Shown here piece after piece: positions 25,144-38,949 of a stretch of DNA of 64,000 nucleotides. The first letter of the stretch is position 1, and every line of letters starts with the position of its first letter. A model generated the notes under the pieces. That model saw only the letters and a program-made list of their open reading frames with translations, did no database searches and was not told where the DNA came from. The position numbers were made by a program, and so were the translations under genes. The DNA lies in contig JAFLTR010000004.1 of the NCBI GenBank assembly GCA_022509205.1, positions 25,049 through 89,048 on the forward strand, in the 5' to 3' direction. The stretch comes from Muribaculaceae bacterium (lineage in GTDB: Bacteria; Bacteroidota; Bacteroidia; Bacteroidales; Muribaculaceae).

Positions 25144-26880
25144 TTAATTATAGCCTTGGTTCTGGGTATAGAGACCGGGCACATAATAGAGCTGGTTGTA
25201 AGGCACCGGATAGAATTCATTCTTTCCGGGAGTGAAACGGGCATCCTTGAGGTATTCCGCATAAGACTGGCCTTCGTACGACACTGTCTGTTCCTTTTCA
25301 AAATAGGCATTAAGAGTCTCCGAAGCTATACCCCATCTTTTCAGAGAGAAGAAACGGTCGTTTTCCATAGCCATTTCAAGCCTTCTTTCCCATTGCACAC
25401 ACTGACGAGCGATCTCTTTTGATGAGAAATAACCGGAAGGATATGTGGAAATCTGGCAATAGTCGGCTGCATAAGCAATATGTTTTGCTACAGAATTTTC
25501 AGCTCTTTTCCTGATATCGTTGATAATATTTTGAGCTTCAGCAAGCTGACCTAATTCAACGAGTGCCTCTGCACGCATCAGCATAACGTCGGTGTAGCGG
25601 AACACGTAGTCGTTCATGGCAAAAGCTTGCCAACTACCATCGTAAGTTTCACCTTTTGAACATTGGGGCACATCCTTAAGGGAGGTATAGTAGCCATAAG
25701 TGTTTGGAGTTCTTGAATTCTCTTTTGTCATAGTGAACTCAGCCTCATACTTATAAGGCCAGGAAGGCATGCCTACGGTGTGGAAAAGACGGGGATCGTA
25801 TTTTTGAGCGGAAGCCACACCTTGTACCGGATAAGAGATATTGTCATTGTAATGGTCAAACATCGGCAGGCCGTTTTCAGTCTTGAAGGCATTAACGAGG
25901 TTTTGTGATGGTTTGTGGAAATCCCATCCGCAGCTCCACATACCCCAGCAGCCATTCAACATATTGCTCCAGTTTGCACGTCCGAACTGTGTGTTGTCTT
26001 CGCTACGGTCGGAAGTCTGAACAGCAAAGACTGATTCCTTAGAGTTCTTGTATTCGGGCAAGAAGATATCTCCGTAATCTTCAAGGTAGCCATATTGTGA
26101 ATTCATTACCACTGCGGTGTAGTCAACCACCTTCTGCATATATGAGTTGTTTATATGGCCCACTCCGTTGGAGGCTTCATAACCGTCACCCCAAGCAAGA
26201 GTTAGATAGCATTTTGCCAGATAAGCAGCGGCTGCGATTTTGTTTGCACGACCTCCGCCGTCGATGCTTTCATTCTCAAGGCCGTCGTAAGCTATCTGGA
26301 AGTCATTGATTACTTTTGCAAAAAGCTCTTCATAGCTATAAAGGTCGTTTCTTGTCTCTTCTTCCAGGTGGTTTGCGAAGATCTCCTCATCTACCCATGG
26401 AATTTTGCGGAACATAGTGAGCAACTTATAGTAGAAATGTCCTCTGAGGAAGTGGACTTCTGCAACTCTTCTTGCAGCAGTTTCAGCACCCAGGACGCTT
26501 TCTCCGTATTGGTCAAGGGAAACGAGTGCCCGGTTGCAACGAGATATGGCACAATAGAGGCGATACCAAAGTTCGTCAAGTTCGCCGGGGGGAGAAGTAA
26601 GTGTCGACCAAATTTCCATCGGATGATAGCCCGTGTCGGTTGTTCCTGAACCACCTTTATAGCAGTCGTCGGAAGAGAAGTCGCCGTAAGGCATCAGATT
26701 GAACGGATAAGTATACCAGCAGTCGCCGAGCATAGCATAAGCAGCTGTGACCATCTCATTTGGCTGGGAATATACATAATCCCCGTCGATCACCCCGGTG
26801 GGAGTAACATCAATGAAATCGTTGCAGGAGGTGGCTGCAAGAGCAATCATTGAAATGCCTATTATATTTTTGAGTTTCAT
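25144..26880 (-). CDS. SusD/RagB family nutrient-binding lipoprotein
   Basis: ATSCNDFIDVTPTG N-terminus, TPR SusD fold features, C-terminal NEFYPVPYNQL. Confidence 0.93.
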   Translation of the reverse strand: MKLKNIIGISMIALAATSCNDFIDVTPTGVIDGDYVYSQPNEMVTAAYAMLGDCWYTYPFNLMPYGDFSSDDCYKGGSGTTDTGYHPMEIWSTLTSPPGELDELWYRLYCAISRCNRALVSLDQYGESVLGAETAARRVAEVHFLRGHFYYKLLTMFRKIPWVDEEIFANHLEEETRNDLYSYEELFAKVINDFQIAYDGLENESIDGGGRANKIAAAAYLAKCYLTLAWGDGYEASNGVGHINNSYMQKVVDYTAVVMNSQYGYLEDYGDIFLPEYKNSKESVFAVQTSDRSEDNTQFGRANWSNMLNGCWGMWSCGWDFHKPSQNLVNAFKTENGLPMFDHYNDNISYPVQGVASAQKYDPRLFHTVGMPSWPYKYEAEFTMTKENSRTPNTYGYYTSLKDVPQCSKGETYDGSWQAFAMNDYVFRYTDVMLMRAEALVELGQLAEAQNIINDIRKRAENSVAKHIAYAADYCQISTYPSGYFSSKEIARQCVQWERRLEMAMENDRFFSLKRWGIASETLNAYFEKEQTVSYEGQSYAEYLKDARFTPGKNEFYPVPYNQLYYVPGLYTQNQGYN

Positions 26881-26913
26881 TTTTCTGTGATTTAAGATTA
26901 TTAGCTGAAATTA

Positions 26914-29900
26914 TCAGAATCCGAATTGAAGACCGAATGTCACTGAAGTTGAGAGAGGATAAGCCCAATTGGGATTCTCAGGATCAGAACAAGTCAGGTT
27001 TTTACTCTTTATTGTGCAGATATTGTTACCTGATACATAGAATCTCACATTAGAGATACCCGTGTGTTTCAAGATTTTCTCGGGGAGGTTGTAACCGAGC
27101 TGAAGGGTACGCAATTTAGCGTAGGAACCGTTTTCCACATAGTATGTAGAGGCCCTGCCTTCATCTGCTGTATTGTTAGTGGTCAAAGCCGGTATTGTTG
27201 AATTTCTGTTATCCTGAGTCCAGGCGTTGAGCATACGGTCGCCCTTATTGGAACCTGCATCAGTGATGCTCCAGAAGTCAGTCTGGAATTTCTGGTTGTT
27301 ATAGACATCCTGTCCGAAGACTCCCTGCCAGAACATCTGGAAATCGAAATTATTCCACGACAGATTAACTGTAAGACCCATGCTGAAATCGGGTACCGGG
27401 TTGAAAATCCATGTTTGGTCGTCGGCATTGATAACTCCGTCGCCGTTAAGGTCGGCATATTTAAGACCTCCGACACGCGCATTGTCCTGACCGGAAGCAA
27501 GCACCTCCTCTTTAGTCTGATAAAGCCCTTCGACAACATAACCTACGATAGATCCGTAAGGTCTGCGGGCCTCAACGAGGTTCTGACTGGTGGTGTGAAC
27601 ATAGGAACCGGTTGTGGAAGAGGGTAGATAAGTCACTCTGTTGCGGTAGAAGTCTCCGTTAAGAGATACACTATATGAAAGCCCGCATGAGTTTACATAA
27701 TCTTTCCAGCTTGCAAGGAATTCCATACCCCAGTTTCTCAAAGAAGGTCCGTTAGCCCAGGCAGCACCGCCTTCACCCATTGATGCAAGGTAAGCCGGAT
27801 TGATAAGCATGTCTTTCACATCCTTTATATATGCATCGATAGAACCTGTGAGCCTGTTGTTGAGGAATCCAAAGTCGATACCGGCATTATACTGAATGGT
27901 AGTTTCCCATTTGAGGTTGGGGTTTTCTGACTGAATTGCACGATATCCTGACGGAAAAATGCCCGATTGCTGAAGCCAGATGTCATAAGCTGTGGAAGTG
28001 ACACGGTCGCTACCATAATCAGCCACATACAATGACTGGTAAGCATTGTTGGCGATAGCCTGGTTACCTGTCTTACCCCAAGAAAGACGCACTTTGAGAT
28101 CGTTGAGCCATGGCTTTTGGATATTTTCGCTCAAGCGGTAGCCTAATGTTGCAGAGGGGAATGTACCATATTTATAATTGCGGCCAAAACGTGAGGAACC
28201 ATCCCTACGGATCGTGAAAGATGCAAGTATGAGGTTTCTCCAGCTATAATCGATCTTTCCGAAGAATGAGAGGAGAGAATATTGCGATTGGTTACCTGTG
28301 AAATATTCAAGACCCGTTGATGCATCCGGCCACATATACTCGGGAGTCTCTACATCGAAATCAAGGTTGCGACCCTCAGTATTGGTGGCAGTCTGACGAA
28401 AACATTCAATACCGGCCAATACGTGGAACTGATTTTGCTCCTTTATATTGAAATCGTAGTTGATAGTGTTAGTCCAGGTCCATTTTGTGTCTCTCGACTG
28501 GCCGATAGCAGAAGCATTGTTGTCATTGTTGACGATGTCGCTATGGAAAGTATATGTGTAGGCATGTATGAAACCTGATTCATAATCAAGACCGAAGTTA
28601 GAGCGGAAAGTGAAACCTTTGAAAGGTTTGATGTCGATATAACCGTTTCCGAAAATTCTCCAGATTTTAAGACGGTTGTCTTTATTGAAAGCTATTTCCC
28701 TCATAGGGTTCTGACGGTCGCTCATACCTCCGACGGGACCACCGTAGGTGACTCCGTCTTCCTCAAATACAGGCACGGTCGGAGCCATCTTCAAAGCGTT
28801 CTCCATTGGAGCACAGTCAACTTGGTCGGAATAAGTGATTGTGGCATTTTCTCCGATAGTGAGCCATTTGACTATATCGTAGGAATTGTTCATACGCACT
28901 GCAAGACTTTGGAAATCGGTATCCTTAATGATACCTGCATTTCTCTTATAGCCAACAGAGAAAAGAGAGCGACTGTTTTCATCAGCCCTTGAGAGTGTGA
29001 GGTCATAATTCTGCAGGAAACCTGTGCGTGTGATTTCATCGAGCCAGTCAGTATTGCTGATTCTCATTGTTCTACGTGAATTGATGTAACCATCATAAAG
29101 ACCGTTGACCATATAGTCTACGTATGCACCTGTGGCCGGATTATAGACTGAGATCGGGAGACCTACAGGAGCATTCAGATTGAGACCATAGTTTGCAGCA
29201 TAGGCCACCGGATCCATTCCGTCGTTTAGGGCAGCTTGAGCCATGGCTGTGGCATATCCGGGAGTGTCAAGAAGACTCATCTTCTGACTCTTGGTGTAGA
29301 ACTGGGCTGTCCAGCTTGCTGAGAAATCCACTTTAACCTTGCTGTCGCCACCCTTCTTTCCTTGTTTTGTAGTGATGATGATCACACCGTTGGCAGCACG
29401 GCTACCATATATAGAAGCTGAGGCAGCGTCTTTCAAGACCTGCATGCTCTCTATATCGTTCATATTAAGAGTGTTGAGGTTGGTTGTGGTCGGCACTCCG
29501 TCGATCACAAACAATGGACTTTGGTCAGCGTTGAAAGAACCGATACCACGGATTCTGACTGTACCGGCTGAAACCGGAGAACCACCATTGTTCGGGGTGA
29601 TGGTCATACCCGGCACTTTTCCCTGCAGAGCCTGCATGGGGTCGGTGGTGGACGCTGTCTCGAAATCCTTGGTGTTGACTACTGAAACTGAACCGGTCAA
29701 GTCGGCTTTTCTTTGTGTAGAGTAACCAACTACCACTACTTCATCCAAAACTTCCGAATTTTCTGAAAGACGCACATCCATCTGAGGAGATACAACTCCC
29801 TCAAAATCCTTGTAACCTATGTAAGAGATACGTACTTTAGAGCCTTGCGGCACTGTCAACTGGAAATTGCCATCAATATCAGTAGCGGTGCCTTTCTTTG

Positions 29901-30042
29901 TTTCTAAAGACAGGACAGTGGCTCCAATCAATGGCTCGTCGTCGGTTGCCGAAACAACCGTACCTGTCACAAGGATATCTTCGGCATAAGCCGACAACCC
30001 TGCCAACAGGAATAACATTAAACTAAAGATTGATTTTTTCAT
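26914..30042 (-). CDS. SusC/RagA family TonB-dependent outer-membrane transporter
   Basis: CarboxypepD_reg domain, plug motif VVVVGYSTQRKADLTGSVS, SIYGSRAANGVIIITTK, C-terminal TSVTFGLQFGF. Confidence 0.95.
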   Translation of the reverse strand: MKKSIFSLMLFLLAGLSAYAEDILVTGTVVSATDDEPLIGATVLSLETKKGTATDIDGNFQLTVPQGSKVRISYIGYKDFEGVVSPQMDVRLSENSEVLDEVVVVGYSTQRKADLTGSVSVVNTKDFETASTTDPMQALQGKVPGMTITPNNGGSPVSAGTVRIRGIGSFNADQSPLFVIDGVPTTTNLNTLNMNDIESMQVLKDAASASIYGSRAANGVIIITTKQGKKGGDSKVKVDFSASWTAQFYTKSQKMSLLDTPGYATAMAQAALNDGMDPVAYAANYGLNLNAPVGLPISVYNPATGAYVDYMVNGLYDGYINSRRTMRISNTDWLDEITRTGFLQNYDLTLSRADENSRSLFSVGYKRNAGIIKDTDFQSLAVRMNNSYDIVKWLTIGENATITYSDQVDCAPMENALKMAPTVPVFEEDGVTYGGPVGGMSDRQNPMREIAFNKDNRLKIWRIFGNGYIDIKPFKGFTFRSNFGLDYESGFIHAYTYTFHSDIVNNDNNASAIGQSRDTKWTWTNTINYDFNIKEQNQFHVLAGIECFRQTATNTEGRNLDFDVETPEYMWPDASTGLEYFTGNQSQYSLLSFFGKIDYSWRNLILASFTIRRDGSSRFGRNYKYGTFPSATLGYRLSENIQKPWLNDLKVRLSWGKTGNQAIANNAYQSLYVADYGSDRVTSTAYDIWLQQSGIFPSGYRAIQSENPNLKWETTIQYNAGIDFGFLNNRLTGSIDAYIKDVKDMLINPAYLASMGEGGAAWANGPSLRNWGMEFLASWKDYVNSCGLSYSVSLNGDFYRNRVTYLPSSTTGSYVHTTSQNLVEARRPYGSIVGYVVEGLYQTKEEVLASGQDNARVGGLKYADLNGDGVINADDQTWIFNPVPDFSMGLTVNLSWNNFDFQMFWQGVFGQDVYNNQKFQTDFWSITDAGSNKGDRMLNAWTQDNRNSTIPALTTNNTADEGRASTYYVENGSYAKLRTLQLGYNLPEKILKHTGISNVRFYVSGNNICTIKSKNLTCSDPENPNWAYPLSTSVTFGLQFGF

Positions 30043-30293: not shown

Positions 30294-33239
30294 TTATTTC
30301 CTGACAATTCCCACTCCTTTCATACCATTGATGGCAATAGTGAGAGGGTCAGGAAGCTCCACTACTCTTAAGGATTCGGATTCATATTTAGCCGGAAGGG
30401 AATCGAGATAATCGATATCGTATAAACCATTTCCGGCGGAAGGGTCGACAGTGAAATAACCCACGCCAAAGGAAGTGAGATTCTGGAAGAAATGAGTGCC
30501 TTGGGAAGGCTCAATTCTATATCCCGGAATTGCAGTCTCTACCAAAAGGCGCGCGCCGGCAATGTGTGGCCATCTAACAGGGATGCCCAATGCCGGATCG
30601 GAAGAACCCCAGCGCCCGGGACCTATCAAGATATATGGCTCATTTTTCTCCACCAGTTCCCGGTTAAGTTTATCAACTTCCAGAGCAAGCGCCGGATTAT
30701 TGGCACTATTGAAATTATTTTCCCTGACATAGACAATGTGTCTGACGTTGTCCATCACACCATGCCCCAGAGCCTTTTCCGACCGTAGAATCAGTTGGGA
30801 GTCATCCACATTCATCACAGAATCATCGAGCATTTCCTTTTTATCCACGATAGGCCTGATCTGGAGCCAATATATTGTGCCTTTTTTCTCTTCCGTGGAT
30901 GCCTGCGGATTAATGATGCCTGCAAATTCTATCTCCACGGGCCTACCCATAGCATATTGTCCTGTGGATAGCATGAAGTCGACACTATCAGCCAAAGGGA
31001 ACACCTCCTGACGCAAGACATTTGCAAAAGTGACTACTTTCCGACCCGGGCCCCAGTCTGTGTCTCTAAGCATACGGTCGTTGGGATCAAAAGTTGATAC
31101 CATATACCTCAATGCATCTGTCTTGAAAGCATCGGCCACAGATATTTTCTTTATATTGAAGCCTTCGTCGGTGGAGAATTCTTCGCTATCGGGAGCCACG
31201 CTGCTCAAGCCATAAAGATTCTTCTGAGTATCTCGCAAAGCCAGTTCTATAGTAGAAGTCTGCAAAACATGTCCCGGATGTTTCGGAGAGAATCTCAGCG
31301 CCATGCCGCCATCGACAATATATTTTCCAAGACCGGCAGCTACCTCCACCACACCTTCTTCGGATTTTTCTTCCCCGACTGGATAATAGTTGATAGATCT
31401 TCCCACTCCGGAAAAAGAAGGATAATAGTAATCGCCATGCCATTCTCCCACCACTTCCTGAATTATGATAGCCATCTTCTCCTGCTCGATGACATTGCTT
31501 GTGGCGTTCATATAAGCCTTTGAATCGGCAAAGAAGACAGAGGCATAGACTCCCTTCACAGCGTCGCAAAGAAGACGCAACATCTCTTCGCGATCCTGTA
31601 GATAAGGGATCATATAGGTGGAATAAATACCCGCGAAAGGCTGATAATGAGAATCTTCAAGAAGTGAAGAACTGCGGATTGCAAGTGGCTTGTCAAGCAC
31701 ATCGAATAAGGCGCGAAAATCATCAAGCAGATGTTCAGGAAGTTTGGCCCTCAGAAATTGTGCCAGTATTTCGGAGTCCGGAAGTTTGGAGAGGCCCACA
31801 CGATAAAGGCCGTTGTAATCCATAAACTGATCGAAGATGTCGGTGCAGAGCACCACTGTGCGCGGAATCGTTATCTGCACTCCTTTGAGATCGTCAAATT
31901 CCGGATATCGCTTGATGATATGGTCGATAAACGCCAGGCCACGTCCCTTTCCGCCCAGCGACCCCTCCCCTATGCGCTGGAAATTACTGTAACGGTCGAA
32001 CCGGTCTTTGACAAATATCGCCACCACTCCGCGGTTTTTCATCTTGCGGTATTTCACGATCGAATCGAATATCAATTCCTTCACGGAATCCGCCTCCTCA
32101 ATCTTAGAGAAGAAATGACGCTTCATTATATCCGCAATGGGGAACAAAGCCCGGGAATATAGCCAGCGGGAGACGTCATTCTTCCGGCAATGAGCATACA
32201 GGGCGTCATCAGGGATATTGAATACCTGCCTCTGGAGAGTCTTGAGGTCGGGGATTCTCATAATCTCGTGACCGTCTACCGGATCTTTCACAATAAAATC
32301 ACCGAAGCCAAAATTCTGTTCCACCGCCTTCCTGAGCTCCTGCGGGAAAGTCTTGGAGTTTTTATCGAGGAAAAGGTATCCTGCTTTCTCGGCTTTCATC
32401 CGGTTTTCACTCTCCATGCTTTCAAGGATCACAGGAGTGAAAGGATGGCGTTCATGCAGAGAATCAGCCAAAGTGATTCCGGCGTTGGGATCTTTAACTC
32501 CCGCGTGGGGGAAACGCATATCGGAGATCACTCCAAGGATATTCTCCCCGTATTTATCATAGAGAGCCTGAGCTTCCTCATAATCGCGGGCAAGCAGCAC
32601 TTTCGGACGACCTCTCATTCTTAACATCCTTTCATGCTCGTTGAGCGCTTCTGTCGAGAATGTTCGGCTCTGAATAAAAAGATATCTGAAAAGGTGGGGA
32701 AGCACTGAGGAATAAAACCGGATAGAGTCTTCTACCACTACGATGCATTGCACTCCGATATTCAAAATATCGTTTTCGGCATTCATCCGGTCTTCTATCA
32801 GTTTTATGATAGCAAGAATAAGATCGACATCTCCCAGCCATGAGAACACATAATCCACTCCGGCAAGGTCTTCATTGGCTATACGTCGTCTCACCTCCTT
32901 TGAAAAGGGAGTCAAGACCACGAATGGGATCGACGGATATTCTGCATCGATATTCTTAGCCTCCCGGAAAGTTTCGCTGATATCCACTCCGGGCATTGCT
33001 ATGATGAGGTCGAACTGCATCTCCTTGAGAAGCCGTTTTGCCTCTTCGTAGGTGGCAGCTTTCACAAACCTCGGAGGGGATGAAAGATGAAGATCTACAT
33101 ATTCGAAATATACCTGTTCCTCCACTCTTCCATCCTCTTCAAGCATGAAGGAGTCGTAGGGTGTCGCAATCAGAAGCACAGTGAAAATGCGCTTCTGCAT
33201 AAGCTTCTGAAATTCTGTTTCTTTAAGGAACCTGGGCAT
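30294..33239 (-). CDS. Receiver-like domains fused to PEP synthase/PPDK-type ATP-grasp domain
   Basis: Second receiver (IVVVEDS, ISDMRFP, FLDKNS), ATP-grasp (GSLGGKGRGLAFI, IRSSSLLEDSHYQPFAGIYSTY), conserved C-terminus GPGRWGSSDPALGIPVRW; start may be 33200. Confidence 0.8.
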   Translation of the reverse strand: MPRFLKETEFQKLMQKRIFTVLLIATPYDSFMLEEDGRVEEQVYFEYVDLHLSSPPRFVKAATYEEAKRLLKEMQFDLIIAMPGVDISETFREAKNIDAEYPSIPFVVLTPFSKEVRRRIANEDLAGVDYVFSWLGDVDLILAIIKLIEDRMNAENDILNIGVQCIVVVEDSIRFYSSVLPHLFRYLFIQSRTFSTEALNEHERMLRMRGRPKVLLARDYEEAQALYDKYGENILGVISDMRFPHAGVKDPNAGITLADSLHERHPFTPVILESMESENRMKAEKAGYLFLDKNSKTFPQELRKAVEQNFGFGDFIVKDPVDGHEIMRIPDLKTLQRQVFNIPDDALYAHCRKNDVSRWLYSRALFPIADIMKRHFFSKIEEADSVKELIFDSIVKYRKMKNRGVVAIFVKDRFDRYSNFQRIGEGSLGGKGRGLAFIDHIIKRYPEFDDLKGVQITIPRTVVLCTDIFDQFMDYNGLYRVGLSKLPDSEILAQFLRAKLPEHLLDDFRALFDVLDKPLAIRSSSLLEDSHYQPFAGIYSTYMIPYLQDREEMLRLLCDAVKGVYASVFFADSKAYMNATSNVIEQEKMAIIIQEVVGEWHGDYYYPSFSGVGRSINYYPVGEEKSEEGVVEVAAGLGKYIVDGGMALRFSPKHPGHVLQTSTIELALRDTQKNLYGLSSVAPDSEEFSTDEGFNIKKISVADAFKTDALRYMVSTFDPNDRMLRDTDWGPGRKVVTFANVLRQEVFPLADSVDFMLSTGQYAMGRPVEIEFAGIINPQASTEEKKGTIYWLQIRPIVDKKEMLDDSVMNVDDSQLILRSEKALGHGVMDNVRHIVYVRENNFNSANNPALALEVDKLNRELVEKNEPYILIGPGRWGSSDPALGIPVRWPHIAGARLLVETAIPGYRIEPSQGTHFFQNLTSFGVGYFTVDPSAGNGLYDIDYLDSLPAKYESESLRVVELPDPLTIAINGMKGVGIVRK

Positions 33240-33990
33240 TGTGGCGTGAGAGGAAATCGTCGAGGGCCGATGTCATGGAGGGCATCTCTTTGGTGGGAGC
33301 CTCAATAGCAAGTTCAAGGCCGGAGTCTTTGACAGCCTGTGCCGTAGGCGCACCGAATGTGCCTATCAATGCTTTCTGTTTACCATCTTTCACGAAATCA
33401 GGCACATTCTTCAACAGGGAATGAATTCCCACCGGACTGAAGAAAAGCATCAGGTCATAGTCACATTTCTCGTCAGGTGTGAAATCATTGCTCACCGTGC
33501 GATACATCATCGCAGGGGTAAGGTCGATTTTTAACGCCGAAAGAGCTTCCATTCTTTCGGGTAGGATATCGGAAACCGGGATAAGGAATTTTTCCTTATG
33601 GTTTTTCTGGACTGCTGAAATAAACTGTGGATCGTCGAGACGCCCTGTGAGCCCGAAAGAGATCTTGCGCTTACGATAGACTATATATTTCTGAAGGTAA
33701 AGGGCTATCTGCTCCGTGGTGCAGAAATAACGCATGGTGTCGGGCACATTTACACGCGATTCTTCGCAAAGTCTGAAGAAATTGTCAATTGCAGTGCGAG
33801 CAGTAAAAATTACAGCCGTATATTCGGCCAAATTAATTTTTGACTGACGGAATTCTTTGACTGTCAGCGGCTCCACCTTTATCATTGGTCGGAACACTAT
33901 TTCTACGTCATGTTTCTTTGCAATCTCGAAATACGGAGATTTAGGTGAGGTAGGCTGAGGTTGCGAAACCAGAATCTTCTTAATTTTCAT
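33223..33990 (-). CDS. Uroporphyrinogen-III synthase (HemD)-like protein
   Basis: HemD-like fold pattern (YTAVIFTARTAIDNFF, LMLFFSPVGIHSLL, ALIGTFGAPTAQAVKDSGLELAIEAP). Confidence 0.8.
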   Translation of the reverse strand: MKIKKILVSQPQPTSPKSPYFEIAKKHDVEIVFRPMIKVEPLTVKEFRQSKINLAEYTAVIFTARTAIDNFFRLCEESRVNVPDTMRYFCTTEQIALYLQKYIVYRKRKISFGLTGRLDDPQFISAVQKNHKEKFLIPVSDILPERMEALSALKIDLTPAMMYRTVSNDFTPDEKCDYDLMLFFSPVGIHSLLKNVPDFVKDGKQKALIGTFGAPTAQAVKDSGLELAIEAPTKEMPSMTSALDDFLSRHNAQVP

Positions 33991-34109
33991 AGGTCAGAGG
34001 TCATCGTTACTACAGACTTAGAGGTCTATAATTACTCGCTCGGAGAGAGGATACAGGCTGAAATACACAGATTTCCTTCACTGTATGGGTATCGGCTGCG
34101 ACAAAAATC

Positions 34110-34904
34110 TCACAGAATCTTGTCCAGAAGAAGAGAGATCCGATAGCACAAAATCAACGGAATAATTTCCAGACTGCAAAGGTAGCATAAAAAAAGCACC
34201 CAAGACGAAAATTGATAGAAAAAAATCCTGTAACCTTTCCAGATAAATACCAATTTCGCCAGAATAAAAACGAGCAAAGCAAGAGAGGCGACTCCGGGAG
34301 CGGTCTGTGGCAAACAGATTCCCACAAGAGCCAGAATAAAAAATGCCGGTGCCATAAGTGCCTGACTTGCAGAGAATCCCTTGACCCATAATTCGGCATG
34401 TGAACGGTCACTAAACACCCAACCGACAGCTGCATAAGACCACCACATGAAGATACTATATCCGGCCGCTACAACCATTCCCCAAAGCATCCCGATGGCC
34501 GAAATGGGTAAGGGATCGCCCGATGTGAGAAAAAAGCGAAGAAAACAATAACCGATGATTCCTGCGCATCCACACCAGAGAATATTCAGCATGACGATAA
34601 GACTCGTTTCCCTGACAGTGTCGTCGAAAACATTCTGTCGCGTGCGAGTTTCTATGAGATTTCGGAAAATAGTAAGTGCATATTTTATGTTGTTTCGGAA
34701 TCTCAGGGCAATAATGAGAAAGAGCAGGAAAAGTCCTGTGAGTATGAATGAAATGCCGTTCCCATTGTCCGACCTCAGAGGTGCCCTTTCGGGAGGTGGC
34801 GGAGGTGTCAGCAACAATCCGTAGACCGGTTCGGGCGCGGCAATGGTATCAAAGGTTTCAAAAACCGCTTGACTTACGGTTGATATCGAATCGTTCAGAG
34901 CCAT
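34110..34904 (-). CDS. DUF4271-like membrane protein
   Basis: Multi-TM protein immediately upstream of the HemD-like gene, the usual Bacteroidetes neighbourhood. Confidence 0.65.
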   Translation of the reverse strand: MALNDSISTVSQAVFETFDTIAAPEPVYGLLLTPPPPPERAPLRSDNGNGISFILTGLFLLFLIIALRFRNNIKYALTIFRNLIETRTRQNVFDDTVRETSLIVMLNILWCGCAGIIGYCFLRFFLTSGDPLPISAIGMLWGMVVAAGYSIFMWWSYAAVGWVFSDRSHAELWVKGFSASQALMAPAFFILALVGICLPQTAPGVASLALLVFILAKLVFIWKGYRIFFYQFSSWVLFLCYLCSLEIIPLILCYRISLLLDKIL

Positions 34905-35905
34905 CCCTCTTTCTTATACCAGTCAGCAGCATTTCTCACCCCCTCTTTTAGCGACACCATCGGATTGAAACCGAAATCTCTCTTTGCCTTACTGACATCG
35001 GCATCCCAGTTTCGCTGCTTCATGATATTGTATTTATCGCGATTAAGGGTGGAAGGTTTCATTCTTGCCACACCCCATTTTTCAGCTACTGCCGACACGG
35101 CTTTGACAGCCCACAGAGGCATCGGAAGGGACAGGACATGCTTGCGTCCGATGGCTTCGGCAGCTATTTTACGAAATTCTTTCTGAGTGTAGGACTTATC
35201 CTCGGAAATAATGTAGGTATTGCCGGCAGGGGCTTTTTCAAGGGCATCAAATACTGCCCGCGCGAGGTCCTCCACATAGATGAAAGTGAGAAGTTGTTTC
35301 TTATATCCTGCCGAGAAATCAAATCCTTTGGAAATCGACTGCAACATCAGGTAATAATCTTTGTCACGTGGACCGTAGATGCCTGTGGGCCGAAAAATTA
35401 TATACGGGATGCCCTCCATCTGAAGGAGCATTTCTGCTTTCAGTTTGGAAGCACCGTAACGAGTGTTGGGAGCCGGAATATCTGTCTCCCGGAATTTGGC
35501 GCCATCTTTTTCGTGGGATGGGCCATGAACCGACAAGGAGCTCATCAGAAGAAATTTGTCAGGCACCTTCCCTGTCGCCTTAAGTGATTCGAGAAAATTC
35601 TTCAGATATTCATAATTCACTTTTGAGAAATCGGAGAAAGAAATCGCCTTGGTGGCTCCAAGATTATATACAATCCAATCCCATTTCTGATCTCCGGGCA
35701 TGGACTCTTCGATGGTTTGAGCGAGAGAGTCGGGATTATCGAAGTCGAAGGTTACGAATTTGATAGCCGAGTCGGCAAGATATTTACGTGAAGTCGTTTC
35801 TCTCACTCCGGCATAAACCTCACATCCTCTGCGGAGACCCTCTTCTACAATGAAACCTCCGGCAAACCCTCCTGCCCCGACCACCAATACTTTCCTCTTA
35901 TCCAT
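34895..35905 (-). CDS. NAD(P)-dependent epimerase/dehydratase
   Basis: Rossmann VVGAGGFAGGFIVEE, YGASKLKAE, IIFRPTGIYGPRD; overlaps DUF4271 gene by 10 nt. Confidence 0.9.
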   Translation of the reverse strand: MDKRKVLVVGAGGFAGGFIVEEGLRRGCEVYAGVRETTSRKYLADSAIKFVTFDFDNPDSLAQTIEESMPGDQKWDWIVYNLGATKAISFSDFSKVNYEYLKNFLESLKATGKVPDKFLLMSSLSVHGPSHEKDGAKFRETDIPAPNTRYGASKLKAEMLLQMEGIPYIIFRPTGIYGPRDKDYYLMLQSISKGFDFSAGYKKQLLTFIYVEDLARAVFDALEKAPAGNTYIISEDKSYTQKEFRKIAAEAIGRKHVLSLPMPLWAVKAVSAVAEKWGVARMKPSTLNRDKYNIMKQRNWDADVSKAKRDFGFNPMVSLKEGVRNAADWYKKEGWL

Positions 35906-35937: not shown

Positions 35938-36146
35938 CAAAATTTTCTGTTACATCGGATATTCACGAAGCTATCGGGTCGGAAAGATAACTTACCGGGG
36001 AAAATAGGAAAAGTCCCCTCAAATAGCGGATTACTCCCGATATATGGAGTATTGGAAGTATCGGTTGAAATAACTCCGACTTCAGAAATAAGCAAGGAAA
36101 AAGTGACTGTGAGTCAATAAGTGGGGTTACATCTAAAAAAAAGAAT

Positions 36147-36154
36147 TAAATTTG
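36147..36154 (+). promoter_or_regulatory. Putative -7 element for hybrid two-component system gene
   Basis: TAAATTTG, 8 nt before ATG at 36163. Confidence 0.45.
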
Positions 36155-36162
36155 TAACCGAT

Positions 36163-38949
36163 ATGAAACATCGACATTTATTTCATCAATTAACCTTATC
36201 TAAAAACCAAGCTCTTAAATTGAGAGCTCGTATTAAAAGAAATCTCATCTTACTTCCGGTCCTTATAATATCGATTATACTTGTAGCAGGGTGCGAGGAA
36301 AAAAAGATATATAAAATCGGGATCTCACAGTGTAGCAGCGACGACTGGCGCTCAAAGATGAATCAGGAGGTGATGCTCGAGGCAATGCTTCATGATGATG
36401 TCGAGGTGGAGATCCGATCGGCCAACGATGACAGCGAAAAACAGATACGGGATATAGAATATTTTGCTTCAAACGGGTTTGATGCAATATTGGTTGCACC
36501 CAACGAGGCTGAAGCCCTGACTCCCGAAATCAGGAAAATTCATAATATGGGTATTCCTGTGATTATTTACGACCGTAATATCAACGATTCTTCCTACACA
36601 CAGAGAATCGGGGTGGATAATGTCTGGCTTGGATCGCAAGCGGCGAAATATTCCGCCATGCTATTCCCGAATGGTATAAGAGCCTTGGAAATATTTGGTT
36701 TGCCGGGTTCAACACCGGCCCGTGACAGGAGCCATGGATTCAATGCTGTAGTGGATTCGGTGGGTGGCATTGTGTTGGGAGGAGCTCCGGCCAACTGGAG
36801 GCAGGATAAGGCAAGAGAGAAAGCCGACTCCCTTATAAGGGAATATCCTCAAGTGAATCTGATTTTTGCCCACAACGACCGCATGGCGATAGGCGCTTGG
36901 GAAGCAGCCGAGGCACTCGGACGAAAAGATATAAAGATTATCGGAATTGATGCAGCACCGGAAATCGGCCTTAAAGCCGTGGCCGAGGGCAAGATCGACG
37001 CTACTTTCATGTATCCCACTCAAGGGGAGCGATTATTGCGTGAGGCACTCAATATACTCAAAGGAGGGGATTTTGAGCGGGAAGTGATGTTGCCGACCAC
37101 ATCCGCTGTGGATGCTTCCAATGCCGACATTTTGCTCCTACAGAATGAAAATATCGATGAGAGTTCTGAAAAGGTTTTGCAACTTCGCCATCAATTAGAT
37201 GATTTCCAAAGTCTTCATAATGCCCAGACCGCTTTGTTCTATGCCATTATCGCCATTCTTGTGCTTCTCTTCGGGGTGCTATTCTTAGTGTTGCGAACCT
37301 ACTGGGCCCACCGGCGCCATCAAAATGCTCTTTTGCGGCAGAACAAACTACTTGAAGAGGAGCGTGACAAACAAAAGGAGCTAAATGAGAAACTCGAAGC
37401 CGCCACTCAGTCGAAGCTTATTTTCTTCACCAATGTGAGTCACGATCTACGCACCCCCTTGACTCTTATCGCAGAACCTGTTGCACAGTTCAACAAAGCC
37501 GATAATCTGACTGCGCCCCAAAAAACCCTTGCCAAGATAGCCGACAAGAATGTGAAGATTCTTCAGCGTCTCATCAATCAGATCCTGGATTTCCGAAAAT
37601 TTGAAAACAACAAGATGACCCTCAACCTCAAGGAGGTGAATTTCAACAATATTGTGAAAGATTGGCTCGAATCTTTCCATGCGGTTGCTAAAAAACGAGA
37701 TATCAATCTGCAGCTGGAGGAGCCAAAGGAAGAACTTTTTATAGCCATAGACCCCGAAAGGATCGAAAGGGTTTTCTTCAACCTGGTTTTTAACGCCATG
37801 AAGTACAGCCCTGACAACAGCACAATTAAAGTCAGTTATAAAATTGACGGAGAAGAATTAATCCTCAGGGTTGAGGATCAGGGAGAGGGGATAACCGAGG
37901 AGAATCTCCCGAAAATTTTCGATCGTTTTTATCAGGTGGATAAAGTCAGACCAAGAGGAAGCGGCATAGGGTTATCACTGGCCAAAGCATTCGTGGAATT
38001 GCATGGAGGCTCGATAACCGTGGAAAGCGAGGTAGGGAAAGGCTCTACATTCACCGTGACAATTCCCGTGATGCATGTAGCCGAAAATGTGGCTGACTAC
38101 ACAAAAGGTATCACGTCGCAAGATGTGGAAGGAGTGATGGAAGATGTAGAGGCAGATCGGGAATTCACGGAAGAGAAACCGGTTGTGCTGGTGATTGACG
38201 ACAATAAGGATATCCGGGAAATGGTTTCTACATTGCTCCGGGAAGACTACAATGTAGTGGGAGCCTCCAACGGGAAAGAGGGTATAAGGAAGGCATCCAA
38301 ATATGTGCCTGATCTGATAGTCTGCGACGTGATGATGCCGGGCATGGATGGCATGGAATGTTGCCGACGGTTGAAATCCGAACCTGTTACTTCCCATATC
38401 CCGGTTTTGATGCTGACGGCCTGCAGTCTTGATGAACAGAAAGCGCAAGGTTTCGATAGCGGAGCCGACGGATATCTCCCTAAGCCATTTTCATCTGTAG
38501 TGCTCAAATCGCAGGCAGCCTCGCTTATAGCCAACCGAAAGAGGATAAAAGACCTATTAGGCGAAAGGAAGCACCTGCAATCGGATGAAACGAAAGGGAC
38601 GAAAAAACAAATAGAGGGAAACGGCGATATCGATAATGAATTCTACAGCCGCTTCTTAAAAGTTTTTGAAGAAAGAATGGGTGATCCCGACCTGAATGTG
38701 GAGGCTATCGCTTCGGAACTTGGTTTCGAGCGCACGCAACTATATCGAAAGATAAAGGCAATCACCAACTATTCACCTGTGGAACTGATGCGCAACCTGC
38801 GCTTGAAGAAAGCCCGGAATCTTTTGATGGGCTCCGAAAAAACCATCAGTGAGATCTGTTATGAAGTGGGTTTCTCGACTCCTGCATACTTCACTAAGTG
38901 CTATCGCGACCAATACGGGGAAACTCCTTCGGAGACGCGCAACAAATAG
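36163..38949 (+). CDS. Hybrid two-component system (periplasmic sugar-binding-like sensor, histidine kinase, receiver, AraC HTH), BT1754-like
   Basis: Periplasmic-binding-protein domain, TM, HisKA (FFTNVSHDLRTPLTL), HATPase (GSGIGLSLAKAFVELHGG), receiver (VIDDNKDIRE, VCDVMMPGMDG), AraC helix-turn-helix at C-terminus. ATG 36163 preferred over GTG 36121. Confidence 0.92.
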   Translation: MKHRHLFHQLTLSKNQALKLRARIKRNLILLPVLIISIILVAGCEEKKIYKIGISQCSSDDWRSKMNQEVMLEAMLHDDVEVEIRSANDDSEKQIRDIEYFASNGFDAILVAPNEAEALTPEIRKIHNMGIPVIIYDRNINDSSYTQRIGVDNVWLGSQAAKYSAMLFPNGIRALEIFGLPGSTPARDRSHGFNAVVDSVGGIVLGGAPANWRQDKAREKADSLIREYPQVNLIFAHNDRMAIGAWEAAEALGRKDIKIIGIDAAPEIGLKAVAEGKIDATFMYPTQGERLLREALNILKGGDFEREVMLPTTSAVDASNADILLLQNENIDESSEKVLQLRHQLDDFQSLHNAQTALFYAIIAILVLLFGVLFLVLRTYWAHRRHQNALLRQNKLLEEERDKQKELNEKLEAATQSKLIFFTNVSHDLRTPLTLIAEPVAQFNKADNLTAPQKTLAKIADKNVKILQRLINQILDFRKFENNKMTLNLKEVNFNNIVKDWLESFHAVAKKRDINLQLEEPKEELFIAIDPERIERVFFNLVFNAMKYSPDNSTIKVSYKIDGEELILRVEDQGEGITEENLPKIFDRFYQVDKVRPRGSGIGLSLAKAFVELHGGSITVESEVGKGSTFTVTIPVMHVAENVADYTKGITSQDVEGVMEDVEADREFTEEKPVVLVIDDNKDIREMVSTLLREDYNVVGASNGKEGIRKASKYVPDLIVCDVMMPGMDGMECCRRLKSEPVTSHIPVLMLTACSLDEQKAQGFDSGADGYLPKPFSSVVLKSQAASLIANRKRIKDLLGERKHLQSDETKGTKKQIEGNGDIDNEFYSRFLKVFEERMGDPDLNVEAIASELGFERTQLYRKIKAITNYSPVELMRNLRLKKARNLLMGSEKTISEICYEVGFSTPAYFTKCYRDQYGETPSETRNK

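Follow-up and report, generated by a model that had tools for sequence, protein, structure and literature searches.

A near-universal Bacteroidales protein combining receiver domains with a PPDK-type ATP-grasp is genetically partnered with glutamate dehydrogenase and probably regulates it

The stretch of DNA analysed here (the window, 64,000 nucleotides of a Muribaculaceae contig) encodes a 981-aa protein whose family has a well-supported, conserved genetic partnership with glutamate dehydrogenase (GDH). The protein is best described as a receiver-gated ATP-grasp regulator of GDH activity that acts probably by phosphotransfer, a chemistry suggested by its domains and invariant residues. We consider it rather likely that it is a dedicated partner of GDH, most plausibly a post-translational regulator. 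In Bacteroides and Prevotella, dominant bacteria of the gut and rumen, GDH is a main route by which ammonia enters glutamate. Keyword searches of the open-access literature returned no paper describing a link between this family and GDH.

The family is near-universal in the Bacteroidales and is not an oddity of a single genome. Matches with E <= 1e-10 were found in 256 of 295 Bacteroidales genomes (about 87%), including 208 of the 243 genomes of good quality, and matches with E <= 1e-100 in 78 of 81 sampled genomes of the genus Bacteroides. The order and genus labels of these samples were read off from named relatives, which belong to the Muribaculaceae, Bacteroides, Phocaeicola, Prevotella, Parabacteroides, Tannerella, Barnesiella and Paludibacter. 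The search for the family covered the Bacteroidota, and a phylum-wide sample drawn mostly from other classes contained it in 34 of 198 genomes (E <= 1e-10), at roughly 40% identity over the full length. Viral contigs held no relative of the 981-aa protein, and a plasmid collection yielded relatives in only three Bacteroidales records. Across hundreds of genomes, homologs share 38-71% identity with the protein, so that the open reading frame at 30294..33239(-) is not a chance one.

The domains of the product follow one another in the order REC1, REC2, helical linker, ATP-grasp and C-terminal domain (Table 1). An AlphaFold2 model of the whole protein, computed from a 62-sequence alignment, has a mean pLDDT of 87.4 and a pTM of 0.81. 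A phmmer search of the PDB with the full protein returned no match; a profile of the family, unlike the single sequence, reached rifampin phosphotransferase (RPH) and HpeI.

Table 1. Positions of the features discussed, in window coordinates or, where a locus handle (L) is given, in the coordinates of that locus
Feature	Position	Strand	Basis
Whole gene, 981 aa	30294..33239	(-)	ORF, Pfam, AlphaFold2; ATG start
REC1, residues 20-161	32757..33182	(-)	AlphaFold2 secondary structure, alignment column counts
REC2, residues 165-309	32313..32747	(-)	AlphaFold2, alignment
Linker, residues 310-423, mostly helical	31971..32312	(-)	AlphaFold2
PPDK_N / RPH-type ATP-grasp, residues 424-810	30810..31970	(-)	Pfam, alignment, Foldseek
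C-terminal domain, residues 811-981	30297..30809	(-)	AlphaFold2, Foldseek, Pfam
H916 codon	30492..30494	(-)	Alignment of 62 homologs
HemD-like gene	33223..33990	(-)	ORF, Pfam; overlaps start of family gene by 17 nt
Two-component pair	L035:9322-11397	(+)	
C-type paralogues beside GDH: ATP-grasp + RWGS/GTHFFQ domain + C-terminal PF01909	L037:7805-10987; L052:7840-10581	(-)	
B-type paralogues, ~575 aa	L037:10981-12723; L038:9766-11511; L039:10154-11872; L047:9944-11674	(-)	

The initial annotation, made from the sequence alone, had proposed a degenerate receiver-like domain followed by one that retains its key residues, and both proposals hold. Two consecutive (beta-alpha)5 folds are predicted by AlphaFold2 over REC1 and REC2, and Foldseek pairs the N-terminal half of the protein with the tandem receivers PleD and 3luf in the PDB. 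REC1 is receiver-like in predicted fold but not in its active site, as no Asp is conserved at the end of beta3 among 58 homologs and the phospho-Asp position is not acidic. REC2, correctly placed by the annotation at roughly 32310-32780, combines the fold with the acidic pair, phospho-Asp, Thr/Ser and Lys of a receiver. Its signature of E170, D171, D240 (codon at 32520-32522), S274 and K293 is complete in 57 of the 58 homologs that have the domain, and in all 58 once N is allowed at position 171. The Pfam Response_reg model (PF00072) finds REC2 at residues 202-287, with an E value of 2e-5 and a score below the Pfam cut-off.

The assignment of the following region to a PPDK_N-like ATP-grasp is equally sound. 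PPDK_N (PF01326) matches residues 427-810 with an E value of 1.2e-38, and the structural matches of the domain in the PDB (Foldseek) are RPH (5hv1/5hv6), HpeI (9goj) and PPDK. Six of its residues, K431, R522, E769, E771, Q793 and R795, do not vary among the 62 homologs; when the motifs are compared by eye, they align with GGKG, VRSG, DMEF and LQTR of the genome's own PPDK. The TSHAA-type His motif that the annotation reported missing is indeed absent: PF00391 had no Pfam hit in the protein, and a GGxTxHA motif occurs neither in the 62 homologs nor in the six frames of the window. The PEP/pyruvate TIM barrel (PF02896) likewise had no Pfam hit in the protein. Without a canonical phospho-His domain the protein is therefore not a normal PEP synthase, as had been supposed.

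One might still regard it as a PEP synthase or PPDK that has lost a domain, or as a decayed copy of one, given the PPDK_N match and the automatic name that such proteins usually receive (in Parabacteroides distasonis, a 55% homolog is entered in RefSeq as a 'PEP/pyruvate-binding domain-containing protein'). This is extremely improbable. The His domain and the TIM barrel are both lacking, a complete-looking PPDK is encoded elsewhere in the genome, and on these grounds a canonical PEP synthase or PPDK was rejected; decay is ruled out by conservation of the family in 256 of 295 genomes.

The His swivel domain of an RPH-type dikinase is not found in cis, and no partner carrying one was recognised among the conserved neighbours. 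With an intact ATP-grasp and no swivel domain, the protein would have to pass a phosphoryl group to another acceptor. Dikinase-type phosphotransfer is still possible without a swivel domain on the same chain, because HpeHI is a split dikinase in which the ATP-grasp (HpeI) and the His reside on separate chains (PMC12167813). In place of a swivel His in cis, GDH itself or H916 of the C-terminal domain could serve as acceptor.

The initial annotation had overlooked the C-terminal domain and the one invariant His in it. The last 170 residues are confidently predicted to be an autonomous fold; residues 800-981 modelled alone with AlphaFold2 reach a pLDDT of 91.5 and a pTM of 0.90. The family alignment shows large invariant patches in this domain, which contains the motifs GPGRWGS and PSQGTHFFQN. 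Within the latter lies H916, the only His that is invariant in 62 of 62 homologs and hence, judged from the alignment, a candidate phospho-acceptor or acid/base. The window's copy of the domain has no Pfam hit and no Foldseek match in the PDB at E <= 0.001; hidden homology to the PEP-utiliser swivel domain or to any solved fold was rejected on this negative Foldseek result. The RWGS and GTHFFQ motifs are shared by the distant C-type paralogues (see below).

The partnership with GDH is visible first in gene order. Within the phylum-level sample, a cluster of proteins of about 450 aa adjoins the family gene in 17 of 20 loci. The sequences in this cluster are GDHs, and Bacteroides proteins belonging to the same GDH family match solved GDHs in the PDB. 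Of 80 named Bacteroidales loci, 22 have a GDH no more than 4 kb from the family gene, as do 15 of the 52 whose flanks reach 3 kb or more on each side; the commonest arrangement in named loci is divergent, with a short intergenic stretch. For Bacteroides, a hand count from coordinates, confined to genomes with both genes on one contig, gave a GDH within 4 kb in 43 of 54. A rough estimate of the chance expectation for an interval of that size is about 0.5% of genomes.

Two types of GDH are involved. The gdhA type has its best PDB matches among the NADP-type GDHs, and the gdhB type matches the NAD-type 1bgv best. The RefSeq gene order in Parabacteroides distasonis is gdhA(-), family gene(+) and, 3.5 kb further, a second GDH. 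In Bacteroides beyond the seven genomes named below, gdhA is parted from the family gene by insertions of about 1.5 to 24 kb, and gdhB stays close. The window's own genome has two GDHs, one in the gdhA clade and one in the gdhB clade of the GDH tree, both on other contigs and unlinked to the family gene.

The neighbour that had been singled out earlier was a HemD-like gene, apparently co-transcribed with the family gene. The 17-nt overlap of the two frames (33223..33239) is correct, and upstream of the family gene the HemD-like, DUF4271 and SDR genes form a block at 33223-35905(-). This linkage is lineage-specific, however: in the survey of 80 loci, HemD and DUF4271 neighbours were confined to the window and three of its close relatives, 4 loci in all, so that co-function with HemD was rejected as a general signal, and the widely conserved, recurrent neighbour is GDH. 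The genes flanking the region in the window, a SusC/SusD-like pair and a hybrid two-component regulator with AraC-type output (25144-30042(-) and 36121-38949(+)), represent an ordinary polysaccharide utilisation setting. A protein of about 448 aa without a Pfam match is encoded directly downstream of the family gene in 13 Muribaculaceae-like loci (e.g. L060:10964-12310(+)).

A second line of evidence comes from paralogues. In several genomes of other classes the family gene is present in two or three copies, most of them behind a GDH, and particular copies go with particular GDHs. Clade 1 of the family gene sits behind a T446 GDH in 6 of the 6 cases with an upstream GDH in view, and clade 2 behind a T453 GDH in 8 of 9 (Fisher p = 0.0014 for the pairing of clades); for the C-type paralogue the partner is the distant T428 GDH in 5 of 5. 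Such a pattern would arise if pairs were duplicated as units; its retention argues that the partner is one particular GDH and not a metabolite common to them.

This observation bears on the idea that the protein is a small-molecule dikinase or ligase in the pathway of GDH, for example phosphorylating some metabolite of the glutamate or 2-oxoglutarate pathways, with the receivers as allosteric domains and the GDH protein left untouched. Such an enzyme would agree with the nearest folds found by Foldseek (rifampin phosphotransferase, HpeI and PPDK), and pathway partners are often conserved neighbours. The one-to-one tracking of GDHs that carry out the same reaction fits a protein partner better than a metabolite, however, and neither a swivel domain nor a domain for a known substrate (PEP/pyruvate, rifampin or other) was found. 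We regard a small-molecule substrate as unlikely and prefer GDH itself as the target.

The distant paralogues also differ in architecture. B-type paralogues consist of the ATP-grasp and the C-terminal domain only, without receivers, and a C-type gene follows each of them. C-type paralogues have another N-terminus in place of the receivers, and two of the four that were scanned contain a PF01909 nucleotidyltransferase domain. In only three loci (L035, L036 and L041), a PAS-HisKA_3 histidine kinase and a LuxR-type response regulator lie between the GDH/partner pairs; this kinase/regulator pair is a possible source of phosphate for REC2.

The presence and absence of the family gene provides a third line of evidence. 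Two or more GDHs are encoded in 157 of 256 genomes with the family gene and in 0 of 39 without it (Fisher 4.9e-15, a value that treats genomes as independent and ignores kinship). The contrast is repeated within genera: species without the family gene keep a single, more divergent GDH in the genera g127 (G218, compared with G332 and G429), g109 and g217, which suggests that the type of GDH changes together with the family gene. Among 30 GDHs from genomes without the family gene, a single one groups with the gdhA clade and none with the gdhB clade, so that in this sample both Bacteroides GDH types are nearly confined to genomes that have it. No GDH hit was seen in 9 of the 256 genomes with the family gene, several of which are fragmented. 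The alignment columns of GDHs from genomes with and without the family gene show only few differences, so that no modification site can be named from them.

We propose that the partnership works as follows. A signal, probably phosphorylation of D240 in REC2, would open or close the ATP-grasp, with REC1 serving as a non-phosphorylated interaction module. The ATP-grasp would then spend ATP in the fashion of a dikinase to phosphorylate an acceptor, which may be GDH itself or, as a first step, H916 in the protein's own C-terminal domain; a change in GDH activity would follow. The activity of GDH is taken as the output because of the pathway linkage, the pairing of paralogues and the title of a 1996 paper discussed below. 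The initial annotation had suggested a phosphorylation-regulated ATP-dependent ligase or kinase and left its substrate open; this reading is partly supported, and the possibility of dikinase-type phosphotransfer, the C-terminal domain and the link with GDH were missed.

Control of GDH could also be non-catalytic: under the control of its receivers, the protein would sense ATP/AMP and serve as a binding or assembly factor, so stabilising or inhibiting the hexamer of GDH. Receivers commonly act by protein-protein contact, and a C-terminal domain of unknown fold with large invariant patches would suit this role. A mere sensor would tolerate some loss among the six ATP-grasp residues, though, and none of the 62 homologs departs from this set, which includes the residues that PPDK uses to transfer a phosphoryl group; we therefore judge a purely binding role quite improbable, and continue to favour catalysis.

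Older work on Bacteroides may bear on this proposal. Reversible inactivation of GDH in B. fragilis was reportedly described in 1987, a result that is not counted as evidence here, and Baggio and Morrison in 1996 are said to have restored GdhA activity in trans in E. coli with a downstream segment of about 3 kb, the transcript being unaffected. Seven Bacteroides genomes (G256, G362, G563, G659, G661, G663 and G668) have the family gene convergent with a gdhA-type GDH and a few to about 300 bp downstream of it; this type we take to be the gdhA of 1996, from a presumed B. thetaiotaomicron sequence (nearest match 98%) and the pattern of PDB matches. The genome whose gdhA is nearest to that presumed sequence has a 486-aa catalase-like gene between gdhA and the family gene, so the 1996 factor could be another gene. 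As worded in its title, the 1996 paper concerns a 'trans-acting' factor that affects GdhA activity and that, in B. thetaiotaomicron, maps downstream of gdhA (Baggio & Morrison 1996, as listed among the references of PMC4539542). The family gene is a strong candidate for this factor, although its position is not a demonstration. Activation as the proposed direction of control is suggested by that title.

If the protein does regulate GDH, a protein that about 87% of the sampled Bacteroidales genomes encode, and that is now labelled 'PEP/pyruvate-binding' or 'PEP synthase', becomes a nitrogen-control element, and the family gene is a concrete, cloneable candidate for the 1996 activity factor. Probable control of GDH by the 981-aa protein may then explain the Bacteroides factor of that report, as far as its title describes it. 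A PPDK-type ATP-grasp would have been recruited to regulation, with a new domain replacing the swivel domain. More boldly, and only tentatively, one can propose a new enzyme class, a receiver-gated dikinase-type protein phosphotransferase with an ATP-grasp and an undescribed C-terminal domain (with H916 as the catalytic residue), that switches GDH on covalently, constitutes a Bacteroidota-wide switch of nitrogen assimilation and is the GdhA factor of 1996.

Post-translational control of ammonia assimilation is familiar from GarA/OdhI, which act on GDH and 2-oxoglutarate dehydrogenase, and from GlnE/GlnD and PII, which act on glutamine synthetase. The domains of these regulators are unrelated to those of the 981-aa protein, although some distant paralogues of the latter do have PF01909. 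PPDK and PEP synthase (PF01326) share with it the ATP-binding domain and its K/R/D-E/E/Q/R set, and differ in having the PEP-utiliser His domain and the TIM barrel. RPH (PDB 5hv1/5hv6) has an ATP-grasp of the same fold, and is both the top structural match (E 1e-12) and the top sequence match; the 981-aa protein lacks its rifampin-binding domain and swivel catalytic His, and has instead two receivers and a C-terminal domain of unknown type. HpeI of HpeHI (PDB 9goj, PMC12167813) is likewise an ATP-grasp chain without a swivel His domain of its own, but it consists of the ATP-grasp only, with no receivers and no link to GDH, and HpeHI acts on phenols (PMC12167813). The 1996 factor, as presented in the title of that paper, resembles the family gene both in its place near gdhA and in its link to GDH activity.
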